This document shows positions 5,547-61,509 of a DNA stretch of 64,000 nt, piece after piece (within the stretch, counting starts at the first letter, position 1; the number at the start of each line of letters is the position of its first letter). The stretch lies in the NCBI GenBank assembly GCA_019217005.1, contig JAHBNG010000004.1, positions 243,991 through 307,990 of the forward strand, given 5' to 3'. The notes beneath the pieces were generated by a model, which saw only the letters and a program-made list of their open reading frames with translations, was not told the DNA's origin and searched no databases. The stretch comes from Chloroflexi bacterium TSY (lineage in GTDB: Bacteria > Chloroflexota > Anaerolineae > Caldilineales > Caldilineaceae). The position numbers were made by a program, and so were the translations under genes.

Positions 5547-5605
5547 GTTATTTGGGTGCTTATTTCAGGGGAATGGTCCAAACAATATTTACACGAGGAA
5601 AACTT

Positions 5606-9183: not shown

Positions 9184-10986
9184 ATGACAATCTCAACCGA
9201 GTCGATTCGACACGACCCACTCTCTACTTGGCGCTATTGGTGGAAATTGATCCGCTGTAACCCAGGCGTCTACATAGCGACAACACTCTTGCGCATTGCG
9301 ATCTTTACCTTTGTCTTTCAAGGCGTCGGTCTGACCATGCGCTTCTTTTTTGATTCGTTGACGGACAGTGCGCCGCTTGGTTGGGGCCCTATGGCGTGGG
9401 TTGTGCTCACTGTCGTCATTGCCGTTGCTCAGAATACGCTCATTATGGCCGACATGTTCGTCTTCTTTAAGTGGGAGTTTGTGAGTGGAGCGGTGCTGCG
9501 CAAAAATATGCTGGAGCGTATCCTGGATCGGCCAGGGGCGCGGGCATTGCCGGGCTCCACAGGCGAGGCCATCAGTCGTTTTCGGGGTGATGTGGATGAC
9601 GTCACCAACTTTACAGTGTGGGCACTCTTTATTGTGGCACAAGGTTGCTTTGCCATCATTGCCTTGGTGATCATGGTACGGATCAATTTGCAAATTACAA
9701 CACTGGTCTTCCTCCCGCTGATCTTTGTGGTAATTGCGGCCAATCTGACTGTGTCTCGCGTGCAACGCTATCGAGAAGCCACTCGCCACGCCACCGGCAA
9801 CGTGACCGGATTTATTGGCGAGATGTTCGAAACGACTCAAGCCATCAAAGCGGCCACGGCCAAAAATTGGGTACTGGGTCATTTCGAACAATTAAACGAA
9901 AAGCGGCGCAAGAGTGCACTGCGCGACCGGCTCTTTAGCGAGTTACTGGGAGCCATTTTCCTCAACACCACAAACGTTGGCACGGGCTTGATTCTACTGA
10001 TCAGTAGCCAGGCCATGCAAGATGGCACCTTTACCGTGGGAGACTTTGCCCTCTTTGTCTTCTACTTGGGCTTTATCACCGACTTGACGGGGCAAATTGG
10101 CCGATTCTTTCCACGCCTGCGCCAAGCGGGGGTGGCCTTTGACCGCCTGAATGGTCTGTTACAAGGGGCACCACCAGAGACATTGGTTCAACAAACACCG
10201 ACCTATCTGCATGGCGAGTTGCCAACTGTGCCGAGCGTACGCAAAACCAATGAAGATGAACTGAAGACCTTCACAGCCTCGGCTCTTACCTATCATTATC
10301 CAGACAGCACAAACGGGATTTCTGATGTATCGCTTACGCTACAGCGCAACTCGTTCACTGTGGTTACAGGACGGGTTGGCTCAGGCAAAACGACGCTATT
10401 GCGAACATTGCTGGGTCTTCTACCTGCCCAGGCGGGTGAACTGCATTGGAATGGAAATCTGGTCGAATCGGCGGCAACCTTTATGGTCCCCCCGCGTGTA
10501 GCCTACACATCTCAGATTCCATTGCTCTTCAGTGAATCATTGCGCAACAATATTCTACTGGGCCTGCCCGAAGCAGAGTATGATCTCCACTACGCAATCG
10601 AGTCTGCAATCCTAACCGCTGACATTGCACAACTGGCAGACGGGTTGGAAACAAAAGTTGGTCCGCGTGGAGTGAAGCTATCCGGTGGACAAAAGCAACG
10701 TACTACGGCTGCACGCATGTTTGTCCGTGAGCCAGAGTTATTGGTCTTTGATGATCTGTCGAGCGCGCTGGATGTGGATACCGAACAGAAATTGTGGGAG
10801 GGGCTCCTTGCCAGACAATGGGCTACCTGTTTGGTGGTTTCACACCGACGAACTGCACTACAACGAGCCGATCATATTATTGTGATGAAAGACGGGCGAG
10901 TTGAGGACGAAGGAACTTTAGCTGAATTGCTTGAGCGATGTGAAGAGATGCAGCGGTTATGGGCATCAGGTGCTGAAAGTAGATAG
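9184..10986 (+). CDS. ABC exporter half-transporter with degenerate Walker B (exporter C)
   Basis: 600 residues, with the same architecture as exporter A: a membrane domain of about 320 residues, Walker A GRVGSGKTT near 397, signature LSGGQ near 499, Walker B FDDLSSALD near 521 and H-loop VVSHRR near 552. The catalytic Glu is replaced by Asp. Several blocks are almost identical to exporter A (FRGDVDDV versus FRGDADHL, GNVTGFIGEMF versus GQVTGFIGEMF), so they are duplicates. It probably pairs with exporter B or another canonical partner (inference). No obvious ribosome site before the ATG. Confidence 0.9.
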   Translation: MTISTESIRHDPLSTWRYWWKLIRCNPGVYIATTLLRIAIFTFVFQGVGLTMRFFFDSLTDSAPLGWGPMAWVVLTVVIAVAQNTLIMADMFVFFKWEFVSGAVLRKNMLERILDRPGARALPGSTGEAISRFRGDVDDVTNFTVWALFIVAQGCFAIIALVIMVRINLQITTLVFLPLIFVVIAANLTVSRVQRYREATRHATGNVTGFIGEMFETTQAIKAATAKNWVLGHFEQLNEKRRKSALRDRLFSELLGAIFLNTTNVGTGLILLISSQAMQDGTFTVGDFALFVFYLGFITDLTGQIGRFFPRLRQAGVAFDRLNGLLQGAPPETLVQQTPTYLHGELPTVPSVRKTNEDELKTFTASALTYHYPDSTNGISDVSLTLQRNSFTVVTGRVGSGKTTLLRTLLGLLPAQAGELHWNGNLVESAATFMVPPRVAYTSQIPLLFSESLRNNILLGLPEAEYDLHYAIESAILTADIAQLADGLETKVGPRGVKLSGGQKQRTTAARMFVREPELLVFDDLSSALDVDTEQKLWEGLLARQWATCLVVSHRRTALQRADHIIVMKDGRVEDEGTLAELLERCEEMQRLWASGAESR

Positions 10987-11047
10987 CTGTGGTGACAAGC
11001 TCCTGCTTTGTGAATAGATGTTTGGACAATGGGAATCCATATAAGTG

Positions 11048-11124
11048 CTTATCCAAAAAGTTCTGTGACGATGCGTTTTCTTGAGAATCTGGTTGGATTC
11101 ACAACCACTTTTCGGGTAGGTTCT
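11048..11124 (+). repeat. 77-bp CTTATCC palindromic repeat, copy 1
   Basis: Arms CTTATCCAAAAAGTTCTGTG and CACTTTTCGGGTAG are imperfect inverted repeats. The copy at 44380-44458 is a close match on the same strand, and the copies at 53895-53971 and 31883-31960 are inverted. Non-coding, upstream of the large GNAT fusion gene. Confidence 0.8.
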
Positions 11125-11180
11125 AGGACTGATGAACATTCTAAAAATAAAATGAATCCTTTTCCAAAAGAGAAATAACG

Positions 11181-14100
11181 ATGAGCGCCAATCAAAACAA
11201 CAATTATACGATCGAACACTACTCCCACGACCACGATGAAGGCCTGGCCGTGATGTGGAATGAGAGCGATGACCAGTGGCCCGGTACCCTTACCAATGGC
11301 GTCCCCATGACGGCAGAGCGTTGGGGCGACTGGATGGACAAAGAGGTTTCGCTGATGCGGCTGGTGGTTGTTCAAGACAATGGCCCGATCGTCGGCTTTG
11401 GCTCTTTATGGGACAGCACCGATCGCAAGGGTGAATCTTGTTACGTCGATCTGCTAAACGTACACCCTGAGCACCAAGGGCGCAGCCTCTGCCGCCGCAT
11501 GTTGACCCAGATCATCGACTATGCCACAGACCAGGGATATGTCCACGTCACTCTTGGTACCTGGACCTCAAATCTCAAGGCCGTTCCACTCTACAAGAAA
11601 ACCGGTTTCTACTGGCGGCCCGACACCTCGGTCTATATGGAGAACTATATCCCGGCCCTGCGCAAGATGCCTGTGCTGGTCGACTTCTTCCAACGATCTG
11701 ACTGGTACCAGGACTATGACCGTGCCCTGGAACTGATCGAGGATAATGAACGACATCCCAAAACTGGTGACATGAAGATCTATATCTATCGCTGGAAAAA
11801 CCATGCCGGAGAAACCATCGAAGCCATCATTGATCGCCAGAGTCAGCAGCTATGTGGCTTGGAGACGCCAGACTTTGCTGTCTATGCACGAGTCGATGAG
11901 ACCAAACCAGCGATGGGTCTCACCTACGACATCATCTGGTCCATCACGAATAAGCAAGCGCACCCTCTGTCGATTGATCTTGACATTGCGGGAGATGAGG
12001 GGATTCATGTTGCAACCGATTCGTCTATTGCCCTGAACTTGGGTGCCAACGAAACAAAAGAGCGACGCTCCACCTATTGTTGCTCGCCGAATGCACCCAA
12101 GATCGATCTGAGCCGCTGGCAGGCTAAACCCATGCCCGCTGTACGAGCGAAGCTTAAAATCGCTGAAACAGAACTAACGCTAGGGGTTGGTCTGCTCTAT
12201 CAAAAACCTGTGGAACTCTCTTGTCATCCAGATGTGGTGAGTGGTCTACTGGGCCAAAGTCAGACTGTTCTTGTCCAAGTACAGAACCGATTGGCAGAAC
12301 GGATTCAGGGTCAGCTCGATCTCCAAATGGATGCATCCACCGAAACCAATGTGGCTGCCAAACCAGACTCAGTAGATCCAAATTTCAGGTTTTGAGAGAG
12401 AATTCTGGCTAAACAGTTGACATAAATACAAATTTGCCGGTCGATATCTAGTTTTTGCGTTAGATTTGGGCGATTTTCAGATATGAAATAGGTTGTTTTC
12501 TGTAACCGAAATCTGAATAAATGACTCCAAAATCCCTGCAATCTCGACTGAAAATCGCCAAAAACGCCAAATTTGGATCTACTGAGACTGGCAGAGCCAA
12601 CCATTTACAGTCGAGCCAGAGGGCTTTATGAGTGTTCCCCTTAAGTTAAGGGCCGACCATCTTGATTCGGGCAACGTGCACATTCGGGCTGCATTTGCGC
12701 ACAAGGACCAATCGATCCAAACACCTCCCGTCACGCTACCTTATCTTGTCCGAACGATTGGTGGTGTTGCAGCGGTAGAAAGTATGCAGGACCAGGACGA
12801 TCGGCGGGTTTTGATCGAAAATGATTTTTTCCGCGTGACCGTTGCCCACAAAGGCGGCGACATGCGTATCCGCAGCAAGGCTGGCTGGACTCACAATATG
12901 TACCTCAATGAGACGATCGGACCTGCCTTCTTTCCTAGAGAGTTTGGAAAAAAGAGTTTTGACTTGACTTTCACGCAAAACGGCTCTACGGTGGCCGTCA
13001 TCACGACCATCGTTTCTGAGAATTTTCCTGGGTTGGAGATGCGTCGTGACGTGATCATCACTGCCGCCCCTGTCATTCAAGTAGGGTATCGACTGCGGCA
13101 CACGGGCAGTGCCGATGCAGCATCGCATACCTGCCAGATTATGACCTACAACCGATTGCTCAACTTGGGCGTAACCGATGGACTCTCTACCATCCCGCTC
13201 GAAAACCGAATGACCCAAAGCTTGGCCACATCCATGCCGTCCGTGGATGACGACTTTCCGCAAAAACCCGATGGTGTGGGTGAAGAATGGGCTGCCTACA
13301 GTTCTGACGGGCAGGCCCATGGACTCATCTGGTCACCTACCGTTGCGGAACATGAGTGGAAACGTTGGGGATTTTCGTTATACTCAGCCGAACAAACCCT
13401 CGCACCGCAACAGGCAAAGACATTGGATCCATTCTACCTCTATTGCGGTCCCGGTGACTGGCGCGACATACGCCGCATTTGGCAGAGCATAAGGGGCGAT
13501 CAGGCTACACCGCGCAACTTAAGAGAGTTTGACAATTGTGCGATGCCCACCGCCGCGCCGCCCCATCGCGTCCGACTATTGCCAGACCCACTGATTACGC
13601 TTGCGGATGAGGTAGAAGCCACGCTCCACGCGGAGAATGTCCGTCCTGTTAAGCTGAATGGTTCAATTACGCTGGAACTACCCGATGGATGGTCATCTGA
13701 CGTTGCCGATATGAACGGTTTAAGGATTGATGTTTCAGATCTAGCCACTAAAAATGAGCTGACCCGGGCCATTAAGCTCACTGCACCAAGCCGTGTCGGC
13801 GCATCCGTGGGTCAGCTCCGACTCAGCACGCAGATCGCAAACGAAACCACACCGATCGCCCTGCTGCGGCTGGGCGACGCGACTCGCCAAGTCACCTTGA
13901 GCGAGCAGACAACCGCGGATCACCAGCTGTGGCAGGTCGCCAATGGTCACATGGTTTACACGGTTGCGCCCAGCTTCCACGCTGGCATTGTCGAGTGGCG
14001 CAAACAAACCAACGATGTCAATCATCTTCACACCTCCTTTCCAGATGAAGGTGATTTTGAGTGGATGAAACCTTGGTTTGGGGGCGTTCGCCCTACGCTT

Positions 14101-22994: not shown

Positions 22995-24494
22995 CTTTAC
23001 TTTCTGGTAAAGGCTTGAGTGACAAAGGGCAAACCGAAAGGGGCGGAAAAAAGAATCCACCCTGAAAAAACGGGATAAAATGTAAAAATAGTGCTCGGCT
23101 AGTTTAAGCAGCGGCATTGAGGCGGCGATGAGCGAGAACGCCTTTAGGTAAATGGTGTGAAACCGAGGCCTTTTTCCGAAAGTCAGGATCGAGTTGGTCA
23201 GGAGTTGGAAAAAGAGCACTCGAGAGAACACGGCGCAGCCTGCCGGGAGTGGATTGAGGCTCTCGATCCCAGTAGCCAGTCGGTATGGGAGGAAGAGAAG
23301 CGGCTAAATGGGAAAGAAGATTGCCAGCCAGCAGCCCCAGTTCAGGTAAGCGGAAACAAGCCTCATCGGCATGAACAAATTGACGATGTAAGCCAATCAT
23401 CTGCTTGGAAGCCAAGGGGGGATGTTCAACAGGCCAGCGTTCCAGGTAGACAAGATAAATGGTTTCAGGCTGCAAAGTCATAACGGTCGCCAAAACCAAA
23501 GGTGTGTTGTAGGCCGGATCCTGAATGACGTAAATCGAGTAGGTACGGTTGGCTGTATCCACCTTGGTTGTTCTGGGGACGAGATTGTGCCATGCTTGAT
23601 AGCAAATCAGGCGACCACTATAGAGAAAGCGACCAGACGAGTCCGGAGTTGTAGCCTCGAGTCGCTTTCCCTTATAGCTGCGAGAGAGCGGACGCACAAT
23701 ATCACCATATTCAGGTGGTCTGCCTTTTTTCTTTGCGTTTGGGGAACTCATTGCGGCGCACTGTGCAGTTAATGGCTTCCCGCAGGACAAATCGGTCTAT
23801 GCCGCTTTCTAGCATTTCTCTGATTGTAAACCCGGCATCGACCACCGCCACTTCGTCTGACTCCAGTGATTTCTTCGTCTCTTTCAGCAGCTTTTTCCGA
23901 AACTCACTTTCCTTTGTTCCAACCGTGCATCTCATGATTGCCTTGAGCAGTGGCACTCGCTTCCCGCCTATCTCCCCCGAGCTTATCATCACTCCAAAGA
24001 TGAGCGCGGGCAATGCCCGACGAGCCGTTGAGTTATAGAGTCGGTTCACTTTCCCTTGCAGCTTCGGTCGCCAGAACCCTGTGATATCTATGCTTTTCAC
24101 TCGGTACCCTTCTCGCTTTTTTGCCTCCCATTCCCCTTTCCACTTCTTCTTGCCACGACCCCAGCAGACTTGTGATATCCCATGATCCATATCGAAAGCT
24201 CCACCAGCTTCGCCGGAGCTCCTCATCTTCAAACCCGCTTTCTTTCAATGCGCTATGGATTGCTCCTCGACTTTTCAGAAACGACCCATTCAGCATTGCC
24301 CACATCAGACGCATTACATTTACGTTTGTTCCCATCGGCGTTACTTGCAATACATTCATCAGTACTGCTATAGTTATTTCTGGCGCGGTTAGCATTCCTT
24401 CCTCCTTTTTGGGTTCTCTACCTTTAGGATGAACTGCTAACCGCTTTTTGTCACATTTCTCACCTCATCTCTTTTCTTTTACCAGAAAGTAAAG
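22995..24494 (-). mobile_element. 1500-bp DDE insertion sequence, copy 1, nested in the IS1595 element
   Basis: Inverted ends CTTTACTTTCTGGTAAA and TTTACCAGAAAGTAAAG. The 7-bp duplication TAAAATA lies at 22988-22994 and 24495-24501. The transposase runs on the minus strand. Near-identical copies lie at 32884-34328 (truncated) and 60017-61509. I do not assign a family with confidence; the YLERWPVE motif recalls the Y-R-E signature of IS4-like DDE enzymes. Confidence 0.92.
23104..24395 (-). pseudogene. DDE transposase of the 1500-bp IS, copy 1, two frame breaks
   Basis: It starts at ATG 24395 with AGGAGGAAGG just upstream. The first frame (MLTAPEITIAVLMNVLQ to about 24122) must shift at the T6 run 24117-24122 (A6 in the gene) to reach KSIDITGFWRPK, ALIFGVMISSGE and VVDAGFTIREM. 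A second shift at 23725-23730 (A6 versus A5 in copy 2) is needed to reach RPPEYGDIVRPL, YLERWPVEHPP and the end at 23104. With both corrected the protein is 429 residues. The first break is shared by all three copies, the second is unique to this one. Confidence 0.8.
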
Positions 24495-32690: not shown

Positions 32691-35600
32691 ATGAAGAATC
32701 GCGCCATTACGGTCTCCGGTCGACAGGCAAAGAGGGCAAAACCCGCGCCTGTCCATCAGGGTGAATTCGTTGATCTGGTCAAACAGGCGCTCCGGCGGTT
32801 TCACGATCCGGAGTGGTTGAGTCGCAATTCGCCTTTGGCTACCCCTTATTTGCTGGGGAGGCGGTTGTTGGAGATGCCAGCCCCTTTACTTTCTGGTAAA
32901 GGCTTGAGTGACAAAGGGCAAACCGAAAGGGGCGGAAAAAAAGAATCCACCCTGAAAAAACGGGATAAAATGTAAAAATAGTGCTCGGCTAGTTTAAGCA
33001 GCGGCATTGAGGCGGCGATGAGCGAGAACGCCTTTAGGGAAATGGTGTGAAACCGAGGCCTTTTTCCGAAAGTCAGGGTCGAGTTGGTCAGGAGTTGGAA
33101 AAAGAGCACTCGAGAGAACACGGCGCAGCCTGCCGGGAGTGGATTGAGGCTCTCGATCCCAGTAGCCAGTCGGTATGGGAGGAAGAGAAGCGGCTAAATG
33201 GGAAAGAAGATTGCCAGCCAGCAGCCCCAGTTCAGGTAAGCGGAAACAAGCCTCATCGGCATGAACAAATTGACGATGTAAGCCAATCATCTGCTTGGAA
33301 GCCAAGGGGGGGATGTTCAACAGGCCAGCGTTCCAGGTAGACAAGATAAATGGTTTCAGGCTGCAAAGTCATAACGGTCGCCAAAACCAAAGGTGTGTTG
33401 TAGGCCGGATCCTGAATGACGTAAATCGAGTAGGTACGGTTGGCTGTATCCACCTTGGTTGTTCTGGGGACGAGATTGTGCCATGCTTGATAGCAAATCA
33501 GGCGACCACTATAGAGAAAGCGACCAGACGAGTCCGGAGTTGTAGCCTCGAGTCGCTTTCCTTATAGCTGCGAGAGAGCGGTCGCACAATATCACCATAT
33601 TCAGGTGGTCTGCCTTTTTCTTTGCGTTTGGGGAACTCATTGCGGCGCACTGTGCAGTTAATGGCTTCCCGCAGGACAAATCGGTCTATGCCGCTTTCTA
33701 GCATTTCTCTGATTGTAAACCCGGCATCGACCACCGCCACTTCGTCTGACTCCAGTGATTTCTTCGTCTCTGTCAGCAGCTTTTTCCGAAACTCACTTTC
33801 CTTTGTTCCAACCGTGCATCTCATGATTGCCTTGAGCAGTGGCACTCGCTTCCCGCCTATCTCCCCCGAGCTTATCATCACTCCAAAGATGAGCGCGGGC
33901 AATGCCCGACGAACCGTTGAGTTATAGAGTCGGTTCACTTTCCCTTGCAGCTTCGGTCGCCAGAACCCTGTGATATCTATGCTTTTCACTCGGTACCCTT
34001 CTCGCTTTTTTGCCTCCCATTCCCCTTTCCACTTCTTCTTGCCACGACCCCAGCAGACTTGTGATATCCCATGATCCATATCGAAAGCTCCACCAGCTTC
34101 GCCGGAGCTCCTCATCTTCAAACCCGCTTTCTTTCAATGCGCTATGGATTGCTCCTCGACTTTTCAGAAACGACCCATTCAGCATTGCCCACATCAGACG
34201 CATTACATTTACGTTTGTTCCCATCGGCGTTACTTGCAATACATTCATCAGTACTGCTATAGTTATTTCTGGCGCGGTTAGCATTCCTTCCTCCTTTTTG
34301 GGTTCTCTACCTTTAGGATGAACTGCTAGCAGATGCTCCAACAGCGTAATGGCAAGTGGGACCACCTGCGTATACATTTGCTCGATTTGCGTTTGCTGGA
34401 CAAGAGGTCTTTTGGCTCACGATCCATCCCCAGCTGACGGATCGTTTGAACGACATTCTCTTCCGCCTGGCCTACTTTCTACACCTCCAGGGTGCGTCTG
34501 CCCTGTGGCTGCAGTTAATGGCCGATCAAGGAGTCATGCAGGAATATACCATCACTCTCTTACAGCACGAACTCGCTCAAATTGGCCAAACTCCTCTTAT
34601 TCTCTGCTTTGATGAGGTAGATTTGCTGCGCCCGAATGATCTCGTCGCCCATGCGCAAATCGTCAGCCTGCTCGAGAGTTTGCGCGGTCTGGTCCCCATG
34701 CTCCTCATCGGCCAAAGGCACTTGGTCGAAGTGGATCATCAATGTATGTTAACCGGCTTGTCGTCGCCTGCGATTGCACAACTTGCTCATCAGGCAGAGC
34801 TACGGCTGTCACGCGCTGCGTTGGAGCAGATTCAAGCACTGACCCAGGGCAATCCGCGCCTCATCGAACTTTCTTTGGTCTATTATCAGTCAACTAAACG
34901 GATAGGGGTAGCTGAACAGGAGCTATTGTCGGGACTCACCAAAGAACTGTCTTTAGAGTTTCTGTTGCGTCGTATTTGGCGCCACTTGACCGAAGCTGAA
35001 ATGCTCCTTTTGGAGACACTGGCCATCTTTCGCAACCCGGCACCGATCTGGGTTTGGCAAACGGAAGAATCGCAAGCGGCCCTGAAGCAATTATCGAAGT
35101 GGCGTCTTATTCAGGAGGATATCCAGGGTGGTCTGACACTTCTGCCAGTCCTCAAAGAAGCGATACAGCGATTGATCACGATTGAAGAGTTAGAGAAGCT
35201 TCATCGGCGCGCTGCCCAGATTCGCACCCAGTGTGGTCAATACACATCTGCCGCCTGGCACTATGTTCAAGCAGGTGATCCCAAAGCAGCACTCAAACTC
35301 TGGGATACACATCGCCAACAAGAACTCGACCAGGGCCAGGCCGCGGCAGCTCTATCATTGCTGCAATCTGTTTCTGCGCAGCATTTAACACAAAAGACCC
35401 GCGAACTTCTCTATTTGCGGCGGGCTGAACTGCAGAAGCTACTGGGATACTACAACGAAGTGCTCGCCGAACTCCAGACGGCTCACTGGCGCGTTCCCTT
35501 TCTGGAGGCACAGGCCCACCGTATGCAGGGCGATATTGCGGCATTGCGTGGCGAAACAGTGCAAGCTTTGGATGCTTATGCATCTAGCCAGGCAACGCTT

Positions 35601-36440
35601 GAGCAACTGCTCAGTGAATCTGCCAGTCTGCATCGAGCACAGGGTTACTCACAGGTCCATGATCGCAATTTCGGGGTAGCACAACGTGAAGTCTTCCGGA
35701 TACGCCACGATGCCGCCAATCTAGAGGGGATCATTTTCGATAAACAAGGGAACAAAAGAGAGGCTTTGGCTTCTCTGGAAGCAGCCGTTCGTCTAGCCCA
35801 AGAGGCCGATTATCCCTATGGAGAGGCGAATGCACGCAATCATCTCGGCGTGCTCTATGGTTGGCAGCGTCAAGTCGATCGGGCCGACCGTCATTTGAGA
35901 GTGGCAATCGATTACTTCCGTGGGACAGGTCGCTTGAACAAGCTAGCCAGCGCAACCGTCAATTTGGCATTCGTCCATCTTCTATGTGATAATTATCAAG
36001 AAGCAGTTGCACAGGCCGAAGAAGCACTGGAGCTATTCACAAAGTTAGGTGAAGAGTTTGGCCGTGCTGTCAGCACCGAACTTCTGGCAGAAGCACACTT
36101 GGCTTTGGGTAATTTGGAACAAGCAGAAACCTATGCTTGGCAAACGCTCCATGCGGAGGATGTGAACACGCAACCCGATGCCCTTCGTACTTTGGGTGAA
36201 ATCCGATTACAGCAAGGAAATAAAGAAGAAGCCGCAAAGCTGATCCAACAATCGTTGGACATCGCGCAATCTACAGAGAATAAAGTTCTCGAAGCATATG
36301 CCTGGCGAGCACTAGGACTGGTACAAATAGCGCAAAAGGAGCAAGAAGCGGCACTAGACAGTTTGCGACGAGCAATCACGCTCTTTCAGGCGTGCGATAT
36401 GCCTGTGGAGGTCAAAAAGACGAAGCGTGAAATATCTTAG
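32691..36440 (+). pseudogene. ATPase-TPR signalling protein truncated by an insertion sequence
   Basis: The N-terminal piece (32691 to about 32883) encodes MKNRAITVSGRQAKRA and FHDPEWLSRNSPLATPYLLG, and runs into the IS. After the truncated IS a short piece (LQQRNGKW) is out of frame with the remainder, which is open from about 34356 to 36440 (694 residues). That part has AAA/STAND-like ATPase elements (LILCFDEVDLLR as Walker B, MLLIGQRHL, GNPRLIELSLVYY) and then about 350 residues of TPR helices. No P-loop is visible, so it was probably lost with the truncated IS end. The intact protein would be a STAND-type regulator with a TPR sensor (inference). Confidence 0.72.
32884..34328 (-). mobile_element. 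1500-bp IS, copy 2, truncated at one end
   Basis: The left end CTTTACTTTCTGG is present, but sequence identity to copy 1 stops after AACTGCTA at 34328, so about 55 bp with the other inverted repeat are missing. The transposase is on the minus strand: the first frame from 34290, the second frame through KRKEKGRPPEYGDIVRPL, then a frameshift near 33560 where one base is missing relative to copy 1 (TTTCC versus TTTCCC). It is therefore defective. Confidence 0.88.
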
Positions 36441-36533: not shown

Positions 36534-38264
36534 ATGATCATAGAACTTCTAGCTGTTGGCGGCGCTCTGTATGCTGGCTATGCGGGCGTGAAAAGATATC
36601 AACAACGGGCCAAAAGAAATTTGAGTCCGCCTTGGATTGCAAAACAGACAAGACGTTCAATTAGAAATGCCCAAATCGAGGTAGAAGAAGCACAGGAGAT
36701 CGAAAGATCCGTCCATCCGGCTGTCAAGGAGGCGAACCGTTCAATTCTGATTTCATCAACCTCTCTTGTGCTAGCAATAGCTGGTATTTTGACTCAGCCA
36801 ACATTGAGGCTCATGAGTCTACCATTGCTATTTTACATATTTACACCAAGATTCCGCTTGGCCTACCAGGATTTCCGCCAAGAGCAACGAATCTCGCCTT
36901 CTATGCTGCGGGCAACACGTGCCGCGGCTTGTTTGATCATGGGCTATCTGTTTGCAGCCGCACTCGATGCTTGGCTGGAAGCTTTAACGAATAAATTGCT
37001 GGCCCAAAGCGAAGCACGCTTTCAGCGGAGTCTGACGAAAATTTTGGGCCAAGAGCAACCGTCGGAGTGGCTATTTGTTCAAGGGGTTGAAATCGATACC
37101 ACACGCACCGATATCGTGCCGGGTGATGTTATATCGATGGATGCCGGTGATACCATCTCTGCGAATGGCGTCATCGTTTATGGCATGGCCTGGCTCGACG
37201 AACGACTCAAACGTGGACAGCCTGAACCCGTTCTCAAACAGGTCGGAGAGTCTGTTTTTGCCTCGACAATCGTGTTGGGCGGACAGATCTACATCCAGAT
37301 AGAAGAACCCATCAATCAACAGCTTCCAAATCAGGTTCGTCATACGCTGCAGAAAACAGTTCAAACCCAAACCTTGATCCAACAAGCGGGTGAACAGAGC
37401 GGCAAACGCATCGCCCCCTACACGTTTATTCTTTTCGCAGCAAGCTTACCATTTCGGAGCGCGAACCAAGCCATCGCATTTCTGTCGCCAGGCTTTGGAG
37501 CACAAATGAGTGCATTGGGGCCCCACATACTCTACAACTTCGTTGATCTGGCAGCACGCCAGGGTATTTTTATCAAAGATGGCCGCGTGTTGGAGATTGC
37601 CAACCTAATTAATACAATTGTCGTGGATGCTCAAGCACTTGCCGATCCTCCTACTCGTGTTCAAGCAAAGGAGATCTTTCAAAAGCTACGCCAACGTTAT
37701 TGGCCTATCCACGACGCGATTCCCCACGAATTTGCAATTTACCTCATTTCTGATGGAGATGAGGCAACCACTCAGAAACTTGCGGCAGAATTAGGCGTTG
37801 ATGACTATTTTGTCGAACCGCTTACGGTGGCCAAGGCCACTTTATTGGAAAGTCTACAGATGGGAGGACGGTTCATTTGTTATGTGGGAAATGGTGTGAC
37901 AGACGCCCCAGTAATGGAAAAGGCCCTGATCTCCATTGCCATACAGAATACAGAAGCAATTGAAACAAACGCGGCACAGATTATCCTCGTTGACAGGGAT
38001 TTGGGGCAGCTCGATCAGGTTTTTGAACTAGCCACACAATTTGGCAACAAGCAGGGGTTCAATATTTTATGGCCCCTGATGATGGATCTGATCGATATCG
38101 GCACAACTGCCTTTACGAATTTGGGAATTGTCTACTCATTGCTTTTCAGCTATAGTGGAATGCTAGTGAGTGCCATCAACACACGGTTGCCCTTGATTCA
38201 GTATGAAAATGCGAAAGAATTGGCCCACGTAGAGAAGGCATTGGTTCAAAAGATAAGTAACTGA
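36534..38264 (+). CDS. P-type ATPase homologue lacking catalytic residues
   Basis: 576 residues with P1-type ATPase layout: N-terminal membrane helices, an actuator-like domain (DIVPGDVISMDAGDTISANG), membrane helices, and a shortened cytoplasmic domain. The phosphorylation motif DKTGT is replaced by VVDAQALAD near residue 365, the TGES loop is absent (GMAWLDERLKRG near 215), and the hinge GDGINDA reads GNGVTDAP near 451. The nucleotide-binding domain is largely missing. It therefore cannot run the usual transport cycle. It is a relative of the ATPase at 40405-42585, with shared blocks such as FASTIVLGGQIYI versus FASTIILAGRIYV. GAGG precedes the ATG. A regulatory or scaffold subunit is inference. 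Confidence 0.85.
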   Translation: MIIELLAVGGALYAGYAGVKRYQQRAKRNLSPPWIAKQTRRSIRNAQIEVEEAQEIERSVHPAVKEANRSILISSTSLVLAIAGILTQPTLRLMSLPLLFYIFTPRFRLAYQDFRQEQRISPSMLRATRAAACLIMGYLFAAALDAWLEALTNKLLAQSEARFQRSLTKILGQEQPSEWLFVQGVEIDTTRTDIVPGDVISMDAGDTISANGVIVYGMAWLDERLKRGQPEPVLKQVGESVFASTIVLGGQIYIQIEEPINQQLPNQVRHTLQKTVQTQTLIQQAGEQSGKRIAPYTFILFAASLPFRSANQAIAFLSPGFGAQMSALGPHILYNFVDLAARQGIFIKDGRVLEIANLINTIVVDAQALADPPTRVQAKEIFQKLRQRYWPIHDAIPHEFAIYLISDGDEATTQKLAAELGVDDYFVEPLTVAKATLLESLQMGGRFICYVGNGVTDAPVMEKALISIAIQNTEAIETNAAQIILVDRDLGQLDQVFELATQFGNKQGFNILWPLMMDLIDIGTTAFTNLGIVYSLLFSYSGMLVSAINTRLPLIQYENAKELAHVEKALVQKISN

Positions 38265-38363
38265 CGATCAGAATTTCCCTGTCGAAAAAGGGGTGTGTGC
38301 CACAAAGCATGTATCGAATCGTCTTCTGTTGAGGGACAATTGTCCGAAGTTTAAATGATGTGG

Positions 38364-38867
38364 CTATAAGTAGTTTCCTTTATATGATGGGTAGTCAGAC
38401 AGATATTCTGGTTCAACATTCTTAAAGTACCCCTGTTCAAATAGTGGTTTGGCTGCTTGAACAAAATTATTCAACCTCTGAACAATTGCCAAAGCGTATT
38501 TGCCGTTGGATGCTGTTACTTTGTACCTGGGGTGTGTACAGTTTGGATGTTCAAAATTGCTCATTAGGTCGTTGGGGCCGAATTCCTGATTAAATTTTTC
38601 TGTACCAGCAATCAGTTCGTCCGTTGTAATCGTATGTGGTTCGCAAACGACCATAATCATTTCATAAGAATCGTCCCATGTTCTGCCAATCTCGGTAATC
38701 ATGTTGAATAACTCCGTTCCATGACCACAACGAATATCAAGTTTATTTCTCAGTAAGGTGTTTCGACTATATGGGCAGGGAGGAAGATTATTGAAATGAG
38801 GAGAAGGAACGCTTAATGTATGTTCTATCCAGTGCCGAATATGGTGTTCAACCTCTTTAATATCCAC
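38364..38867 (-). CDS. Hypothetical protein
   Basis: 167 residues. The first 40 residues (IRHWIEHTLSVPSPHFNNLPPCPYSRNTL) faintly recall the start of DUF1415 proteins, but the match is too weak to name. It contains several His and Cys residues (CGHGTEL, CEPHTI, HPNCTHP). It lies convergent to the ATPase-like gene. No family is recognised. Confidence 0.6.
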   Translation of the reverse strand: MDIKEVEHHIRHWIEHTLSVPSPHFNNLPPCPYSRNTLLRNKLDIRCGHGTELFNMITEIGRTWDDSYEMIMVVCEPHTITTDELIAGTEKFNQEFGPNDLMSNFEHPNCTHPRYKVTASNGKYALAIVQRLNNFVQAAKPLFEQGYFKNVEPEYLSDYPSYKGNYL

Positions 38868-39260
38868 TTAATTATCTCCTTTTGTACCCCATTCTTGCCA
38901 CAAGCATCTACTTGAATCGCGCCTAATAGGCAAACCAATTAAAAGTCGGACAACATCGAATTTTATCAATCTCAAGTATATTGTACAAGAATTGCACAAT
39001 ATACGTCAATTCTTTGTCCAAGGCAGGAATATAAGTTACTTAACAAGACAACGACAAATGCTAGTATTACCCTCAGTCAAAGCATTTTTTGTCGAGAGAC
39101 AATTGTGTAGCCATATCATATAGACTTTGGGCAATTATTCCTCGACAGAAAACGTTCCTGTTGCCGAAGTTTATGTGGCGTCTCTATCAGAGGGATCAGA
39201 ACAGATTGACAATCCCACAATCCGCAATTGGTATAATATTGACAGTGAGGTAATCTATCG
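38868..39260. other. Spacer upstream of egtD
   Basis: About 390 bp with no gene. It is A/T-rich and contains inverted short motifs: GAGAGACAATTGTGTAGCCA at 39094 and CCGAAGTTTATGTGGCGTCT at 39162. Related motifs occur at 38346 (CCGAAGTTTAAATGATGTGG), 19024 and 14731, so a weak dispersed repeat is present. GAGGT precedes the egtD ATG. Confidence 0.4.
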
Positions 39261-40250
39261 ATGATTCCAATCCTCAAACTTCATAATTTTGAACCACAAA
39301 CAGCGGCAATTCTTGATGAAGTAGTAGAGGGCTTAAAACAAACCCCAAAATATTTATCCGCAAAATTTAACTATGATGAACGAGGCGCTCGATTATACGA
39401 AAAACTTTGTCAAACAAAAGATTATTATTTAACGAGAACTGAACTGGGTATTATGTATCAAAATATTCAGCAAATTGTAGCACATCTCAGCGAAGAGATC
39501 TTAATGATCGAATATGGAAGTGGCAATAGCAAAAAAACCAGATTGTTGTTTGACCACTTACCAAATTTAGTTGGCTATATTCCGATTGATATTTCCAAGA
39601 AGCAGTTGATAGAAACCGTTACTAAAATTGCCCAAGATTATCCTGATATGGAAGTTCTACCAGTTTGCGCCGACTATACCCAATCATTTGAGCTTCCTAC
39701 ACCCTCGCAAAAATTTACGCGACGATTGATCTATTATCCAGGCTCAACCATCGGCAATATACACCCCCAAGAAGCAATTCTGTTTCTAAAACAAATGCGT
39801 CAATATTGCCAGCGCGGCGATGCGTTATTGATCGGTGTAGATTTAGAAAAAGAGCCATCGATCCTCAAACAAGCGTACGATGACAGAGATGGTATTACAC
39901 AGCAATTCAACTTAATTAATCCCCTTGAACGATTGAATCGCGAATATGGGATGGATTTTGTTATCCCACAATATCAACATCATATTGTGTATAACGAACC
40001 AAATTCTAGCATAGAAATCTATCTAAAAAGTTTATGCGATCAGACCGTTCAGATTAATGGTGAAACGATCCATTTTACTGCGGGAGAATTAATTGAACGG
40101 GCAGTAGCTTATAAATACAACTTAAAATTATTCCAGAAATTAATCGAACAGGCTGGCTGGCAAACGGAACGGGTTTGGACAGACGATAAACAATGGTTTA
40201 GTATACATTGCCTGATTGCAGCTGAGCAGTTTTGGATTGATCAAAGGTAA
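39261..40250 (+). CDS. egtD: L-histidine N-alpha-methyltransferase (EgtD family)
   Basis: 329 residues, close to the length of EgtD. Family features include KFNYDERGARLYEKLCQTKDYY, TRTELGIM, the SAM-binding IEYGSGNSKKTRLLF near residue 84, and RRLIYYPGSTIGNIHPQEA. EgtD makes hercynine by adding three methyl groups to histidine, the first step to ergothioneine. No EgtB or sulfur-transfer gene for that pathway is in the window, so the product may be hercynine or another histidine derivative. An A7 run in the gene reads through without a frame break. GAGGT lies before the ATG. It sits between two P-type ATPase homologues. Confidence 0.85.
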   Translation: MIPILKLHNFEPQTAAILDEVVEGLKQTPKYLSAKFNYDERGARLYEKLCQTKDYYLTRTELGIMYQNIQQIVAHLSEEILMIEYGSGNSKKTRLLFDHLPNLVGYIPIDISKKQLIETVTKIAQDYPDMEVLPVCADYTQSFELPTPSQKFTRRLIYYPGSTIGNIHPQEAILFLKQMRQYCQRGDALLIGVDLEKEPSILKQAYDDRDGITQQFNLINPLERLNREYGMDFVIPQYQHHIVYNEPNSSIEIYLKSLCDQTVQINGETIHFTAGELIERAVAYKYNLKLFQKLIEQAGWQTERVWTDDKQWFSIHCLIAAEQFWIDQR

Positions 40251-40404
40251 CCGTTCACGTTGTCCCCGAAGGTGAAAGTCACCTCGCATTCAACCGGGCA
40301 GGTCAGTCACAAGTACGGCTCACTTTGGCGAAAAGTGATTGTCACCTCCTCGTTTAGTTTGCTGCATTTAACTGTTACGATCAAAGATAAATGAGGAATG
40401 ATTG

Positions 40405-42585
40405 ATGGCAATTCTTACTGCTTTATCGACGGGTAGAGCCTTATTCAGGGAAAAACAAACTTACAACAAACGTAAGCAAAAAACACCTTGGTTGGCTCGC
40501 GCGTCGGTCTCCACAACGTCATATCCCTCTCCAATAACCTCCCAGAAAGGTTTTGCGCCACCTCACACTTCATCAAATATTGATGGACAGCAACAGCACA
40601 CATCGTTTCTAAGTAGATATACAAAGTCTATCAACCATAAAGTCAGGGCCTTGTTAGAACCATTCGTTGGCGATCTTCGTCATCAACAACTTCAGGAGAT
40701 CACAGAACTGCAAAAGAGTGATTTGGAAAAGCTTGTTGACCGCAATCTCGCTATTTCAGCTGCAATGTTTGGCATAACAGTTGCCGGGGCATTTATCTAC
40801 TGGCCCATCAGCTTGTTAGCTCTCCCTGGCCTTGCCATCGTTGCCACACCTATTTACAAAGCGAGCTATCAATCCTTAATCGAAGAACACCGCGTGAATA
40901 TCGATGTTGTCGATTCAATTGTGATCAGCGTCATTTTTATCACTGGCCATTTCGTCGTGGGAACAATAGGCGCACTCTTTTATTTTGCAAGCAAAAAACT
41001 GTTGATCAAGACAGAAACACGTTCGACCAACAAGTTAGTCAACATCATGGGGCAACAGCCTCGATTTGTTTGGGTCGCCGTGAATGAGAGCGAAGTGCAA
41101 ATTCCATTTGAGCAGTTGCAACCAGGCGATACCGTTGTCATCGACGCAGGGCAAATGATTCCGGTTGATGGTCATATTATTCAAGGACAAGCCTCTGTCG
41201 ATCAACATATGTTGACCGGTGAATCTCAACCGATAGAAAAAGGGAGCGGCGATCCTTGTTTTGCCTCTACTATCATTTTGGCTGGGCGCATTTATGTCAA
41301 AGTAGAGAAAGCTGGAACAGAAACCGTTGCTGCTCAAATTGGAAAGATTCTAAACAACACCCTCGATTTCAAAGAAACAATGCTGTCTAGAGGACAAGAA
41401 ATAGCTGATAAATCCGCTTTACCGATGTTATTGTTAAGTACCCTCAGCATCCCAAGAGTTGGTTTAATTGGTGGAGCAACAATGCTAAACTCTAGCTTTG
41501 GATATAGCTTGAGAATGATTTCACCCATGATGATGTTGAATTTTCTAACGATTGCATCTCAACAAGGAATTCTCATTAAGGATGGTCGTTCACTAGAGCA
41601 ATTAAGCAAAGTAGATACTGTTGTCTTTGATAAAACTGGCACACTTACCTTGACTCAGCCCCACGTTGGAAAGATCTATCCTTTATATGATGTCTCCGAA
41701 GACCAGCTCTTAACCTATGCAGCGGCCGCGGAGGTTAAGCAAACTCATCCTATTGCTTTAGCCATCCTTCATGAAGCCAAAGCCCGTCAACTCACCTTGC
41801 CCCCAATTCATGAAGCTGAATATGAAATTGGCTATGGGATTAAAGTAACTCTACAGGATCAAGTTATTTATGTCGGGAGTGCGAGATTTATGGAGATGAC
41901 AGGAATCGAAGTCTCAACAACCGCACAAACTTTGGCCGACTACGCACATCAGCATGGATACTCTCTTGTTTATATCGCAGTTGACCAGCAACTGTATGGG
42001 GCAATTGAACTGCATCCCACCATTCGACCAGAGGTACAACAAATCGTTCAAGCACTGCGAGCAAAAAATATCTCCCTCTATATTCTCTCCGGTGACCATG
42101 AACAGCCCACTCAACGATTGGCACAAGAGTTAGGAATTGAGAATTATTTTTCTGAAGTGCTACCAGAGGAGAAAGCAGATTTAATTACTTCACTCAAAAA
42201 ACAGCGGAAAACCATCTGTTTTGTCGGGGATGGAATTAATGACTCTATTGCCTTGAAGAAAGCAGATGTTTCGATATCCCTGCGTGGTGCGTCCACCATC
42301 GCTACCGATATTGCTCAAATTATATTGATGAATGAAACATTAAATCAACTTATTCTTTTGTTTGAATTGGGTGATCAATTTAACTATCACATGAAAATTA
42401 ATGTATTGACATCCATCGTGCCCAGCATCGTGACGCTTGGCGGCGTTTTCATTTTTGGTTTCGGTATTGCCGCCTCGGTCATATCTAATCAAATTGGTCT
42501 AATCGTCGGAATCGGCAATTCGATGCATCCTTTTCTGACCTATCAACAATCCGTGAATCGAAGAAAAATCTTACCAAGGATTTAA
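40405..42585 (+). CDS. P1-type cation-transporting ATPase without a CPC motif
   Basis: 726 residues from ATG 40405 (GAGGA upstream; a TTG at 40402 is possible). It has the full catalytic set: TGES near residue 270, DKTGTLT with Asp 409, HP motif (VKQTHPIALAI), and GDGINDS near 608. The fold is that of the P1B metal-transporter branch. The membrane metal site normally carries CPC or SPC; here the corresponding helix reads GYSLRMISPMMMLNF, so the ion is uncertain. The N-terminal 75 residues are Ser/Gln-rich with no metal-binding domain. The neighbour upstream is EgtD and, beyond it, the inactive homologue. Confidence 0.88.
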   Translation: MAILTALSTGRALFREKQTYNKRKQKTPWLARASVSTTSYPSPITSQKGFAPPHTSSNIDGQQQHTSFLSRYTKSINHKVRALLEPFVGDLRHQQLQEITELQKSDLEKLVDRNLAISAAMFGITVAGAFIYWPISLLALPGLAIVATPIYKASYQSLIEEHRVNIDVVDSIVISVIFITGHFVVGTIGALFYFASKKLLIKTETRSTNKLVNIMGQQPRFVWVAVNESEVQIPFEQLQPGDTVVIDAGQMIPVDGHIIQGQASVDQHMLTGESQPIEKGSGDPCFASTIILAGRIYVKVEKAGTETVAAQIGKILNNTLDFKETMLSRGQEIADKSALPMLLLSTLSIPRVGLIGGATMLNSSFGYSLRMISPMMMLNFLTIASQQGILIKDGRSLEQLSKVDTVVFDKTGTLTLTQPHVGKIYPLYDVSEDQLLTYAAAAEVKQTHPIALAILHEAKARQLTLPPIHEAEYEIGYGIKVTLQDQVIYVGSARFMEMTGIEVSTTAQTLADYAHQHGYSLVYIAVDQQLYGAIELHPTIRPEVQQIVQALRAKNISLYILSGDHEQPTQRLAQELGIENYFSEVLPEEKADLITSLKKQRKTICFVGDGINDSIALKKADVSISLRGASTIATDIAQIILMNETLNQLILLFELGDQFNYHMKINVLTSIVPSIVTLGGVFIFGFGIAASVISNQIGLIVGIGNSMHPFLTYQQSVNRRKILPRI

Positions 42586-42601: not shown

Positions 42602-43229
42602 ATGGAAGCGTGGAACGAGACCTGGGGAACAGAAGCTGGGCGAAAAGAGTGGATTGAGCCAGATCAATTCGTCATTGACCTTTTACCCACCTTACAACAA
42701 GCCGGTGTGCAACGTGGGCTCGACTTGGGGTTTGGGGTTGGTCGACACGCCATTTTTCTGGCGAAGCAAGAAATTGAGATGTATGGTCTCGATGCTGCAG
42801 CCAATGGAGTTTCTTACGCATCTCAGTGGGCTGAGCAAGAGGGCGTTTCCCTCACTTTAACGACAGGTGATATGTCGCAGCTTCCTTACGATGACAATTT
42901 TTTCGATCTGATTATTACCTGGAATGTTATCTATCATGGCACCGTTGATTTTATTGAGCAGACAGTCAAAGAAGTCGAACGTTGCCTCAAACCGAGTGGT
43001 CGCTTGCTCTGCACGCTCATCTCCCATTCACACAAGCGCTACAAACACCTTTGTAATCCCCGGCGGTGGCGAAGCCAGTCATCCTCACCACTACTTCGAC
43101 CAGTCTGAGGTCCAACAACTGCTCCGAAATTTCACCATCCATCGCTGCGAAGATGTAGACCATGCCGTTGACCAATCAGGTAGCAATCATTGGCAGATCT
43201 ATGCAGAATTAGCTACGTGCCGAATATAA
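42602..43229 (+). pseudogene. SAM-dependent class I methyltransferase, frameshifted
   Basis: AAGGAA before ATG 42602, seventeen bases after the ATPase gene. SAM-binding motif LDLGFGVGRHAIFLA near residue 40, then GLDAAANGVSYASQWA and DLIITWNVIYHG. After GRLLCTLISHSHKRYK the frame shifts (about 43040-43050) to NTFVIPGGGEASHPHHYFDQ, which is the normal continuation of this TehB-like group. A few residues may be missing at the break. The end overlaps the convergent MBL gene by about 30 bases. Confidence 0.8.
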
Positions 43230-45678: not shown

Positions 45679-46947
45679 TCACAACCATTCGACAATTGTC
45701 GCTTCTCCTTGTCCCACGCCCACGCAAAGCATTGCCAGGCCATAACGCATCGATTCTCCATCGTCTGCACGCCGCTGCATTTCGTAAAGAAGCGTCGTGA
45801 GGATACGTGCACCAGAGCAACCCAATGGATGGCCCAATGCGATTGCGCCACCATTGACGTTTGTGATCTCTTCGCTCAAGTGCAGCTCACGTAGCACAGC
45901 AAGCGCCTGGACGGCAAATGCCTCATTGAGTTCTGCCAGATCAATCTTATCAATCGACAGCTCGGCGCGTTTCAAGACTTTGCGTGCAGCATAGACTGGG
46001 CCAAGCCCCATGACGCGGGGATCGACACCTGCCGCTGCCGAGGCAATCCACCGCGCCATTGGCCGAATGCCTAACTCTTTTGCTTTAGCAGCGGACATCA
46101 AGACCATGGCACAGGCCCCATCGTTTAGTCCGCTGGCATTTCCGGCTGTTACTGTCCCTTCGTGACGAAATGCTGGACGCAGTTTCGCCAATTGACTCAA
46201 ACTAGTAGCTAGCTCATATCCATTCTCTGTTTTGGTGTAGCGTGGGTGTTCGTCGGTCTTGAATATGAACGGCTCACGTTTGCGTTGGGGAATGCTGACA
46301 GGGACAATCTCTCGTTCGAAATAGCCATGGTTGATGGCGTGAACTGCACGTTGCTGGCTTTGTAGGGCAAAAGCATCCTGCTCTTTACGCGAGATCGGAC
46401 CACCCTCAATGTTACCTGCGCAGCTCATGTCAAAGATGTTCTCCGCAGTTTCACCCATGGCTTCTAATGGGAAAAGTGCTTCCATCTGTGGATTTGGATA
46501 GCGCCAGCCCAAGGTTGTATCGTAGCTGGTGATGTTGCCGGAGGGACCAAAACCAATCGGATTTTTTGGCATTGAATAGGGCGCACGGGTCATGCTCTCT
46601 ACACCGCCGGCAATAAAGACATCACCTTCACCACATTTGATGGCACGCGCCGCCTGATTGACGGCATTCAAGCCGCTCGCACAGAGACGATTGACAGTGA
46701 CGCCAGCGACGTGATGGGACAATCCAGCTAAGAGTAACGCCATGCGCGCGACATTGCGATTGTCTTCACCCGCTTGGTTTGCACAGCCCAAATAGACTTC
46801 TTCAACAAGAGCAGGGTCGATTGCGGCACGATTGATGGCTTCTTTGATCGCGACCGCGGCTAAATCATCTGGACGAACTTGGGAAAGTGCGCCGCGGATA
46901 CGTCCGATTGGCGTGCGCACGGCGCTGGCAATGACGGCTTCGTTCAT
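45679..46947 (-). CDS. Acetyl-CoA acyltransferase (thiolase)
   Basis: 422 residues, full-length thiolase. Catalytic Cys in [12 protein letters not shown] near residue 88, His in [17 protein letters not shown] near 378, and the second Cys in [17 protein letters not shown] near the end. It catalyses the reversible thiolytic cleavage of 3-oxoacyl-CoA. The overall pattern resembles acetyl-CoA acetyltransferase or 3-oxoadipyl-CoA thiolase (PcaF/PaaJ), but sequence alone does not decide. It follows the pyrophosphatase gene by 39 bases on the same strand and may share its transcript. Confidence 0.92.
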
Positions 46948-60016: not shown

Positions 60017-61509
60017 CTTTACTTTCTGGTAAAAGAAAAGAGATGAGGTGAGAAATGTGACAAAAAGCGGTTAGCAGTTCATCCTAAAGGTAGAGAACCC
60101 AAAAAGGAGGAAGGAATGCTAACCGCGCCAGAAATAACTATAGCAGTACTGATGAATGTATTGCAAGTAACGCCGATGGGAACAAACGTAAATGTAATGC
60201 GTCTGATGTGGGCAATGCTGAATGGGTCGTTTCTGAAAAGTCGAGGAGCAATCCATAGCGCATTGAAAGAAAGCGGGTTTGAAGATGAGGAGCTCCGGCG
60301 AAGCTGGTGGAGCTTTCGATATGGATCATGGGATATCACAAGTCTGCTGGGGTCGTGGCAAGAAGAAGTGGAAAGGGGAATGGGAGGCAAAAAAGTTAGA
60401 AGGGTACCGAGTGAAAAGCATAGATATCACAGGGTTCTGGCGACCGAAGCTGCAAGGGAAAGTGAACCGACTCTATAACTCAACGGCTCGTCGGCATTGC
60501 CCGCGCTCATCTTTGGAGTGATGATAAGCTCGGGGGAGATAGGCGGGAAGCGAGTGCCACTGCTCAAGGCAATCATGAGATGCACGGTTGGAACAAAGGA
60601 AAGTGAGTTTCGGAAAAAGCTGCTGACAGAGACGAAGAAATCACTGGAGTCAGACGAAGTGGCGGTGGTCGATGCCGGGTTTACAATCAGAGAAATGCTA
60701 GAAAGCGGCATAGACCGATTTGTCCTGCGGGAAGCCATTAACTGCACAGTGCGCCGCAATGAGTTACCCAAACGCAAAGAAAAGGCAGACCACCTGAATA
60801 TGGTGATATTGTGCGTCCGCTCTCGCAGCTATAAGGGAAAGCGACTCGAGGCTACAACTCCGGACTCATCTGGTCGCTTTCTCTATAGTGGTCGCCTGAT
60901 TTGCTATCAAGCATGGCACAATCTCGTCCCCAGAACAACCAAGGTGGATACAGCCAACCGTACCTACTCGATTTACGTCATTCAGGATCCGGCCTACAAC
61001 ACACCTTTGGTTTTGGCGACCGTTATGACTTTGCAGCCTGAAACCATTTATCTTGTCTACCTGGAACGCTGGCCTGTTGAACCTCCCCCCTTGGCTTCCA
61101 AGCAGATGATTGGCTTACATCGTCAATTTGTTCATGCCGATGAGGCTTGTTTCCGCTTACCTGAACTGGGGCTGCTTGCTGGCAATCTTCTTTCCCATTT
61201 AGCCGCTTCTCTTCCTCCCATACCGACTGGCTACTGGGATCGAGAGCCTCAATCCACTCCCGGCAGGCTGCGCCGTGTTCTCTCGAGTGCTCTTTTTCCA
61301 ACTCCTGACCAACTCGACCCTGACTTTCGGAAAAGGCCTCGGTTTCACACCATTTCCTAAAGGCGTTCTCGCTCATCGCCGCCTCAATGCCGCTGCTTAA
61401 ACTAGCCGAGCACTATTTTTACATTTTATCCCGTTTTTTCAGGGTGGATTCTTTTTTCCGCCCCTTTCGGTTTGCCCTTTGTCACTCAAGCCTTTACCAG
61501 AAAGTAAAG
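60017..61509 (+). mobile_element. 1500-bp IS, copy 3
   Basis: CTTTACTTTCTGGTAAA at the left and TTTACCAGAAAGTAAAG at the right; 1493 bp. Both flanks belong to the glycosyltransferase gene but show no matching 7-bp duplication (TATTGAA versus GTTAACT), so it is either an old insertion or affected by a later change. Confidence 0.9.
60116..61360 (+). pseudogene. DDE transposase of the 1500-bp IS, copy 3
   Basis: Starts at ATG 60116 behind AGGAGGAAGG. It has the shared +1 break at the A6 run 60389-60394, then a missing G near 60497 (CGTCGGCATT versus CGTCGGGCATT), one missing A (A4 instead of A5 near 60781) and a missing CT at about 60825 that together keep the later frame. From 60497 on it reads GVMISSGEIGGKR, VVDAGFTIREM, YLVYLERWPVE and ends early at 61360. 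Confidence 0.8.

Follow-up and report, generated by a model that had tools for sequence, protein, structure and literature searches.

A conserved non-catalytic P1B-like ATPase, its live homologue and an EgtD-like methyltransferase in Chloroflexi bacterium TSY

Among described P-type ATPases, the P1B-type pumps such as CopA and ZntA (TIGR01525) are the natural comparison for the genes considered here, and two other systems are relevant: KdpFABC is a P-type ATPase whose transport path involves another subunit, an unrelated channel-like protein, and the P5B ATPases (the ATP13A2 family) are a precedent for P-type transport of organic cations, the polyamines. We have analysed a 64,000-nucleotide stretch of Chloroflexi bacterium TSY (hereafter the window; contig JAHBNG010000004.1, positions 243,991 to 307,990), in which two P1B-like ATPase genes, one catalytically dead and one live, lie 2.1 kb apart on the same strand, with a gene of the EgtD methyltransferase family between them (Table 1). 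A first-pass annotation of the window had suggested a transporter with the two ATPases as its subunits and, as a possible ligand, a histidine betaine that the EgtD could make. Our searches of openly licensed papers gave no description of a dead-live P-type ATPase pair or of an EgtD-ATPase gene pair.

A conserved P-type ATPase without catalytic motifs

The dead ATPase gene is an intact reading frame of 576 codons, as first annotated. Its product matches Pfam E1-E2_ATPase (PF00122) at 57.6 bits, and its match to Pfam Hydrolase (23.3 bits) is under the cut-off of 26.4; neither of the window ATPases has a Pfam match to the HMA domain. An AlphaFold model (pLDDT 78.6, pTM 0.73) has as its best match in the PDB the copper P1B ATPase 7r0g (TM 0.68 by query length), and by this comparison its membrane part and its A and P domains have the P1B fold. 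The catalytic machinery, in contrast, is largely gone, with RGQP in place of TGES, SDGD in place of SGDH, GNGVTD in place of GDGIND, and VVDA followed by a deletion at the site of FDKTGT; the N-domain is deleted. The first-pass annotation had listed DKTGT, TGES, the hinge motif and most of the nucleotide domain as lost, and this stands for KTGT, TGES and the N-domain, with a hinge that is not full, but not for the phosphorylated aspartate, which persists as D365. This residue is at least 90% conserved across the dead clade, and is an asparagine in protein P0009.

A protein search in which 7997 candidates were scored yielded 12 relatives of the dead ATPase (573–600 amino acids [aa], about 38–80% identical, each with PF00122 alone), and the next proteins below them are live relatives at 24–33% identity. 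The 13 dead proteins, including that of the window, all have open frames, share an N-domain deletion at one place, and have a mean column identity of 61%. A contig scan across genomes found one true dead relative, at locus L001 in a Caldilineaceae metagenome-assembled genome (G001), together with three remote ATPases, and with three candidates scored per genome only two of the 396 genomes of that class (G001 and G323) hold the family, these same two also being the holders among the 46 genomes of its family and order. Scans of viral contigs gave no dead-ATPase relative, and with the live profile gave 55 matches at only 23–35% identity to the live protein of the window; a plasmid search gave a single remote match, in Methylobacterium.

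A tree of 96 proteins (11 dead, 61 live, 23 ordinary P1B and one odd row), built by a quick method with no bootstrap, places the dead proteins in one group with a Shimodaira–Hasegawa-like approximate likelihood ratio (SH-aLRT) support of 100, nested within the live family, and separates live and dead proteins together from the ordinary P1B pumps with a support of 92. This placement indicates that the dead ATPase arose inside a clade of P1B-like ATPases that have no CPC motif. The pattern of conservation also differs between the two groups. Of positions at least 90% conserved in the live proteins, and in columns present in the dead protein, 73 of 83 belong to the A and P domains. The 11 dead proteins have 61 invariant positions, of which 32 are in membrane helices as delimited on the AlphaFold model of the dead ATPase. 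Residues that are invariant in the dead proteins and rare in the live ones are concentrated there as well (14 of 19, against 45% of columns; binomial P 0.012), and include T128, R129, D518, T524, T525, Y534 and Y540. Selection may thus have shifted toward the membrane helices, a pattern in keeping with a non-catalytic membrane subunit, and this is suggestive only, because eleven sequences are few.

The loss of catalytic motifs and of an entire domain is what a slowly decaying pseudogene would display, and the first-pass annotation had considered that the gene might prove to be lone and decaying in relatives. We regard this as exceedingly improbable: the lesions are common to the 12 relatives, and these open frames and common lesions, together with the conservation across the 13 proteins and the existence of dead-specific invariant residues, contradict decay. 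The dead ATPase is almost certainly a conserved non-catalytic protein.

CPC-less live ATPases and their possible pairing with the dead ATPase

The second ATPase gene starts at a TTG codon at 40402, with an ATG at 40405, the start given in the first-pass annotation, whose description of it is borne out. The protein scores 396.5 bits against TIGR01525 (cut-off 346.25), its model matches P1B pumps, and it has LTGES, DKTGT, THP, SGD and GDGIND. Its fourth membrane helix (M4) reads FGYSLRMISP, with FGY at the place of the CPC motif, as positioned against the motif of CopA, so that CPC, SPC and TPC are all absent. Scores of its relatives are bimodal, with family members at 690 bits or more and other P1B pumps at 370–480 bits. 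In the class of G001 members occur in 9 of 396 genomes; for the class of G407 the figure is 8 of 369, and for the phylum of G407 it is 5 of 398. With G400 and G404 included there are 24 live-holding genomes; the wide searches scored the best two or three candidates per genome, and live copies are therefore undercounted. None of the family's 136 database proteins or 61 locus proteins has an xPx motif at the CPC position, and a cysteine is found there in three of each set. FG is present in only 73 of the 136 database proteins, for which reason we dropped the name 'FGx clade' in favour of CPC-less.

Two loci have several ATPases in a row. Locus L034 (G404:C50, 1841–11588) has three ATPases of the live family, all on one strand, and among them a gene like those of peptide-binding lipoproteins. 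L132 (G384:C376, 2725–10114) has a tandem array of three P-type ATPases from another clade; the central one was considered as a third dead example and set aside, because it retains TGDS and DKTAT and cannot clearly be called dead.

A live homologue is present in all three of the genomes in which the context of the dead gene is readable (the window, G001 and G323), and in two of these it is in the same gene row. At L001 the order on one strand is live ATPase (3582–5696), ABC transporter, small protein, ParA (PF13614), dead ATPase (9896–11695) and SPFH protein (Band_7), the live and dead genes being 4.2 kb apart. The tandem arrangement that the first-pass annotation proposed to look for is therefore seen in the window and at L001, but not in G323, where the dead gene is on contig C620, which ends 0.6 kb beyond it, and live genes are on C287 and C784.

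We surveyed 43 loci and the window for other homologues without motifs. An open 287-aa protein of membrane plus A-domain lies 1.7 kb from a live ATPase at L095 (G323), and an open homologue of 235 aa is present at L029 (G001). A 786-aa protein without motifs lies 0.9 kb from a live ATPase at L110 (5531–11424; G544, of the class of G407, Gammaproteobacteria); RGSQ, DGDLP and GDFGRD replace its motifs, there is a weak HMA_2 match near its N-terminus, and its tree branch is very long. This is perhaps a dead/live pair of separate origin, although we are unsure of that origin. Pieces at L023, L097 and L098 resemble live genes that have been split, one at L101 is cut by the locus end, and a 382-aa open reading frame (ORF) at L103 (6807) scores only 25.6 bits; none of these was counted.

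On balance we think that the dead ATPase acts together with a live-family ATPase, a claim that we hold with moderate confidence, and the two may form one transporter. Alternatively, the dead ATPase could be a separate regulator or scaffold, for example at a membrane site with SPFH and ParA proteins as in G001, that forms no pump with the live one. Its position at L001 between the ParA and SPFH genes, with the live gene further off, accords with such a role. A recurring gene set is observed around the live ATPases of L001, L025, L027, L094, L095 and L097, and among 35 live loci large proteins of one family are found in six, ParA in three and SPFH in three, each being absent from 16 control loci. 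No SPFH or ParA genes were seen near the dead copy in the window, however, and its origin from live ATPases and closeness to them fit a paralogous partner. We consider a separate scaffold unlikely.

An EgtD-like enzyme with an altered pocket

The enzyme encoded between the ATPases belongs to the EgtD family, as annotated (TIGR03438, 349.2 bits against a cut-off of 290.9), and it retains Y39, Y56, N166 and Y206 (Mycobacterium smegmatis numbering), but its imidazole pocket is altered, with I252, A282 and A284 where the canonical enzyme has M252, E282 and S284. We compared the pockets of 12 of 19 EgtD-family genes (18 plus that of the window) with the solved M. smegmatis enzyme. Position 252 is I in the window, F in G404, S in G524, H in G440 and I in G648, and position 282 is A, A, C, S and H in the same order; the G440 copy is divergent (about 100 bits) and its alignment less sure. 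M252, E282 and S284 are all kept in seven other copies, namely those of G395, G626 and G874 and four of 11 from other genomes. E282 is missing from the 17 nearest listed relatives of the window enzyme, and from 38 of 120 listed, a warning that some genes given the name EgtD may have products that do not make the precursor of ergothioneine. A tree of 53 rows groups the window and G404 types together (SH-aLRT 98). We take E282 and S284 to be the residues that hold the imidazole, and an engineered EgtD with M252V and E282A reportedly accepts tryptophan. The substrate of the window enzyme, judged from these residues, is probably not histidine; that it may be aromatic is a guess by analogy, made because of these roles and the tryptophan-accepting variant.

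A further gene, absent from the first-pass account, lies between the dead ATPase and the methyltransferase and encodes a 167-aa protein. Five relatives of the window enzyme (P0176, P0177, P0179, P0180 and P0181; 494–507 aa) have an extra N-terminal domain, that of P0176 being 46% identical to the 167-aa protein and those of the other four aligning with it. This fusion makes it probable that the 167-aa protein and the methyltransferase act together. No Pfam family matches the domain at E 10 and no PDB chain does so below E 0.1, and among the ORFs of 208 loci there is no other match at E 1; a likeness of the 167-aa protein to DUF1415 is a tentative suggestion.

EgtD-family genes are associated with live ATPases elsewhere. 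The 24 live-holding genomes contain seven such genes, five of them within 2 kb of a live-family ATPase: in G524, G440 and G648 the EgtD-family gene is directly upstream on the same strand, in G404 the strand is again the same but a halogenase gene intervenes, and in G626 it is 1 kb from a live ATPase (767 bits) on the opposite strand with one gene between, whereas those of G395 and G874 have no such link. For the 19 genomes chosen regardless of EgtD, four of six EgtD-family genes lie within 3 kb of a live ATPase against 0.027 expected (P 5e-9), the G626 ATPase having been recognised afterwards and left uncounted; 53 other genomes contain 11 EgtD-family genes. The linked ATPases are spread over roughly four regions of the live-family tree, of which some are weakly supported, and four of the five linked EgtD-family genes have changed M252 and E282, that of G626 being canonical. 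As judged by gene position, EgtD-family genes accompany the live ATPase, in two phyla, rather than the dead one. At E≤1e-8 no EgtD-family match is obtained in G001 or G323, the two other genomes in which a dead ATPase is seen, and on this ground we reject EgtD as a member of a dead-ATPase system; the nearby conservation of EgtD on which the first-pass annotation had relied thus holds for live-family ATPases and not for the dead one.

We note two observations on individual loci. At L152 (G626:C4, 5053–18796) a live ATPase lies between a cation-efflux gene and the canonical EgtD, and two EgtB-like genes follow at a greater distance; this is possibly an ergothioneine locus with its own pump. The longest contigs carrying P0050 (a live ATPase) and P0171 (EgtD-like) are both 9239 bases, and perhaps are one contig.

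The histidine betaine transporter first proposed draws on the gene order in the window, on the EgtD link to live-family ATPases in other genomes, and on G626, where the linked enzyme has a canonical pocket and EgtB-like genes within 8 kb. Set against these are the missing E282 in the window enzyme and its nearest listed relatives, the lack of an EgtD match in G001 and G323, and the finding that no ORF of at least 100 aa in the window is EgtB-like (phmmer with the L151 EgtB-like protein). Histidine betaine therefore seems a very unlikely ligand.

A possible exporter, its rivals and known systems

In the mechanism that we propose, the live ATPase would be phosphorylated and drive the pump cycle, coupling ATP to transport, and the dead ATPase would lend its membrane half as substrate path or gate, or else regulate the live subunit. 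The cargo would most likely be a small organic molecule, and a transition metal is less likely. A methylated amine is plausible, with neighbouring genes producing or modifying it; in the window these would be the genes for the EgtD-like enzyme, for the 167-aa protein and for the methyltransferase downstream of the live ATPase. Hercynine is improbable. This full chain of a two-ATPase exporter of an organic product, in which complex, transport, direction and cargo are all inferred, is put forward tentatively, as our best reading but one that falls short of being probable. A narrower form, with a heteromeric pump exporting a quaternary-amine product such as an aromatic amino-acid betaine made by the EgtD-like enzyme and its partner, is quite unlikely.

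Live ATPases also occur near assembly-line genes. We located polyketide synthase (PKS; PF16197) and nonribosomal peptide synthetase (NRPS; PF00668) genes in 19 of the 24 live-holding genomes and, after merging 39 live genes to 33 loci, find seven of these within 15 kb of a core gene, against 0.98 expected from a generous genome fraction (P 2.9e-5). Examples of neighbouring genes are a protein with AMP-binding, carrier, sulfotransferase and thioesterase parts at L033, an AMP-binding and carrier protein at L028, and a tryptophan halogenase and an asparagine-synthase-like gene at L035. ATPases annotated as P-type and heavy metal translocating occur in published clusters too: orf16 and orf23 of the miuraenamide cluster (686 and 728 aa; PMC10051162) and one gene of the lusichelin cluster (PMC12210259).

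Several points weigh against an organic exporter. The dead clade has only three readable contexts, with the partners of G323 on different contigs, and most of the live-family loci examined have no dead partner, so that the live protein can probably act alone. The complex and its transport are deduced from genes and sequences. Comparison of PKS/NRPS-like proteins between live loci (8 of 35) and ordinary-P1B control loci (1 of 16) is weak (Fisher P 0.15), and there is no PKS or NRPS core gene in the window, where phmmer with the PKS/NRPS proteins of related loci gives one weak match, to a thiolase-like ORF at 45679–46947. The G626 locus, with its canonical EgtD near the live ATPase and its EgtB-like genes, fits ergothioneine chemistry. 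Finally, according to PMC10051162, deletion of orf14–16 in the heterologous miuraenamide host leaves the yield at 0.07 mg/L and deletion of orf19–23 increases it to 0.70, so production in that host does not need the pumps.

Metal-transporter genes are also found beside some live ATPases: in G626 one live gene adjoins genes for ZnuA and for an ABC-3 permease (L102) and another adjoins a cation-efflux gene (L152), and in G544 a gene of the Na/Ca exchanger family is near the L110 pair. Because of these neighbours and the weak control comparison, we rated the organic exporter lower, and a metal pump higher, than we otherwise would. Such a pump would use other membrane ligands and either provide or take away a metal for metalloenzymes or metallophores, with the dead copy acting as metal sensor or regulator; the live ATPase scores above the TIGR01525 heavy-metal cut-off and folds like solved P1B pumps. 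This reading sits uneasily with the absence of xPx and near-absence of cysteine at the CPC place and with the want of an HMA match in the window ATPases, and by eye we see no metal gene next to the ATPase genes in the window. We regard a metal pump as conceivable but on the improbable side.

The surroundings of the two ATPases in the window are summarised in Table 1. The frame of the downstream methyltransferase seems broken near its 3′ end, and a second frame to 43229 carries the likely C-terminal end. Elsewhere, near-identical open frames (by eye) at 24033–24395, 33922–34377 and 60116–60478 are probably copies of one transposase-like element, and one of these overlaps the 5′ end of the TPR gene; because this end abuts a transposase-like remnant, the gene may be truncated. 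We also considered a common regulator upstream of dead ATPases, which by eye had seemed likely, and rejected it: in BLASTP at 1e-4 the TPR gene matched none of the called genes of the loci compared.

Table 1. Coordinates of the ATPase genes and their neighbours in the window
Feature	Position	Strand	Remarks
NTPase/TPR protein	34356..36440	+	Ends 93 bp before dead ATPase; membership in system unsure
Dead P1B-like ATPase	36534..38264	+	576 aa; membrane helices, A-domain and P-domain present; N-domain, KTGT and TGES gone (ORF, Pfam, alignment, AlphaFold)
167-aa protein	38364..38867	-	No Pfam match; between dead ATPase and methyltransferase
EgtD-family S-adenosylmethionine (SAM) methyltransferase	39261..40250	+	Altered amino-acid pocket: I252, A282, A284 (M. 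smegmatis numbering)
Live P1B-like ATPase, CPC-less clade	40402..42585	+	727 aa; 151 bp downstream of methyltransferase, same strand
Class I SAM methyltransferase	42602..43108	+	16 bp after live ATPase

The association of the CPC-less clade with EgtD-like and in part assembly-line genes suggests that the heavy-metal label may be wrong for this clade, and P-type ATPases annotated as heavy-metal pumps occur in at least two published natural-product clusters. A dead paralogue kept beside a live pump would, if true, be a new kind of subunit for the P-type superfamily, and a heteromeric exporter, if true, would be a P-type pump for a bacterial specialised metabolite.

With regard to known systems, the live protein of the window resembles P1B-type ATPases in fold, in its A, P and N domains and in its catalytic motifs, but differs in its M4, in the HMA domain not being found, and in belonging to a group apart from the ordinary P1B pumps, while the dead copy is unlike them in having no catalytic machinery. 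Unlike KdpFABC, the proposed partner in the window is itself a dead P-type ATPase, and whereas P5B ATPases are another P-type class, the window protein is P1B-like. The methyltransferase is like EgtD (L-histidine Nα-methyltransferase) in family, SAM fold and the four retained residues, and unlike it in its three pocket substitutions (M252I, E282A, S284A), in a window with no EgtB-like ORF, and in having five relatives fused to an unclassified domain. The miuraenamide and lusichelin ATPases, compared by description only, are alike in annotation, in their setting in natural-product clusters and, for miuraenamide, in size, and differ in that no dead partner is mentioned in the portions of PMC10051162 and PMC12210259 used here.

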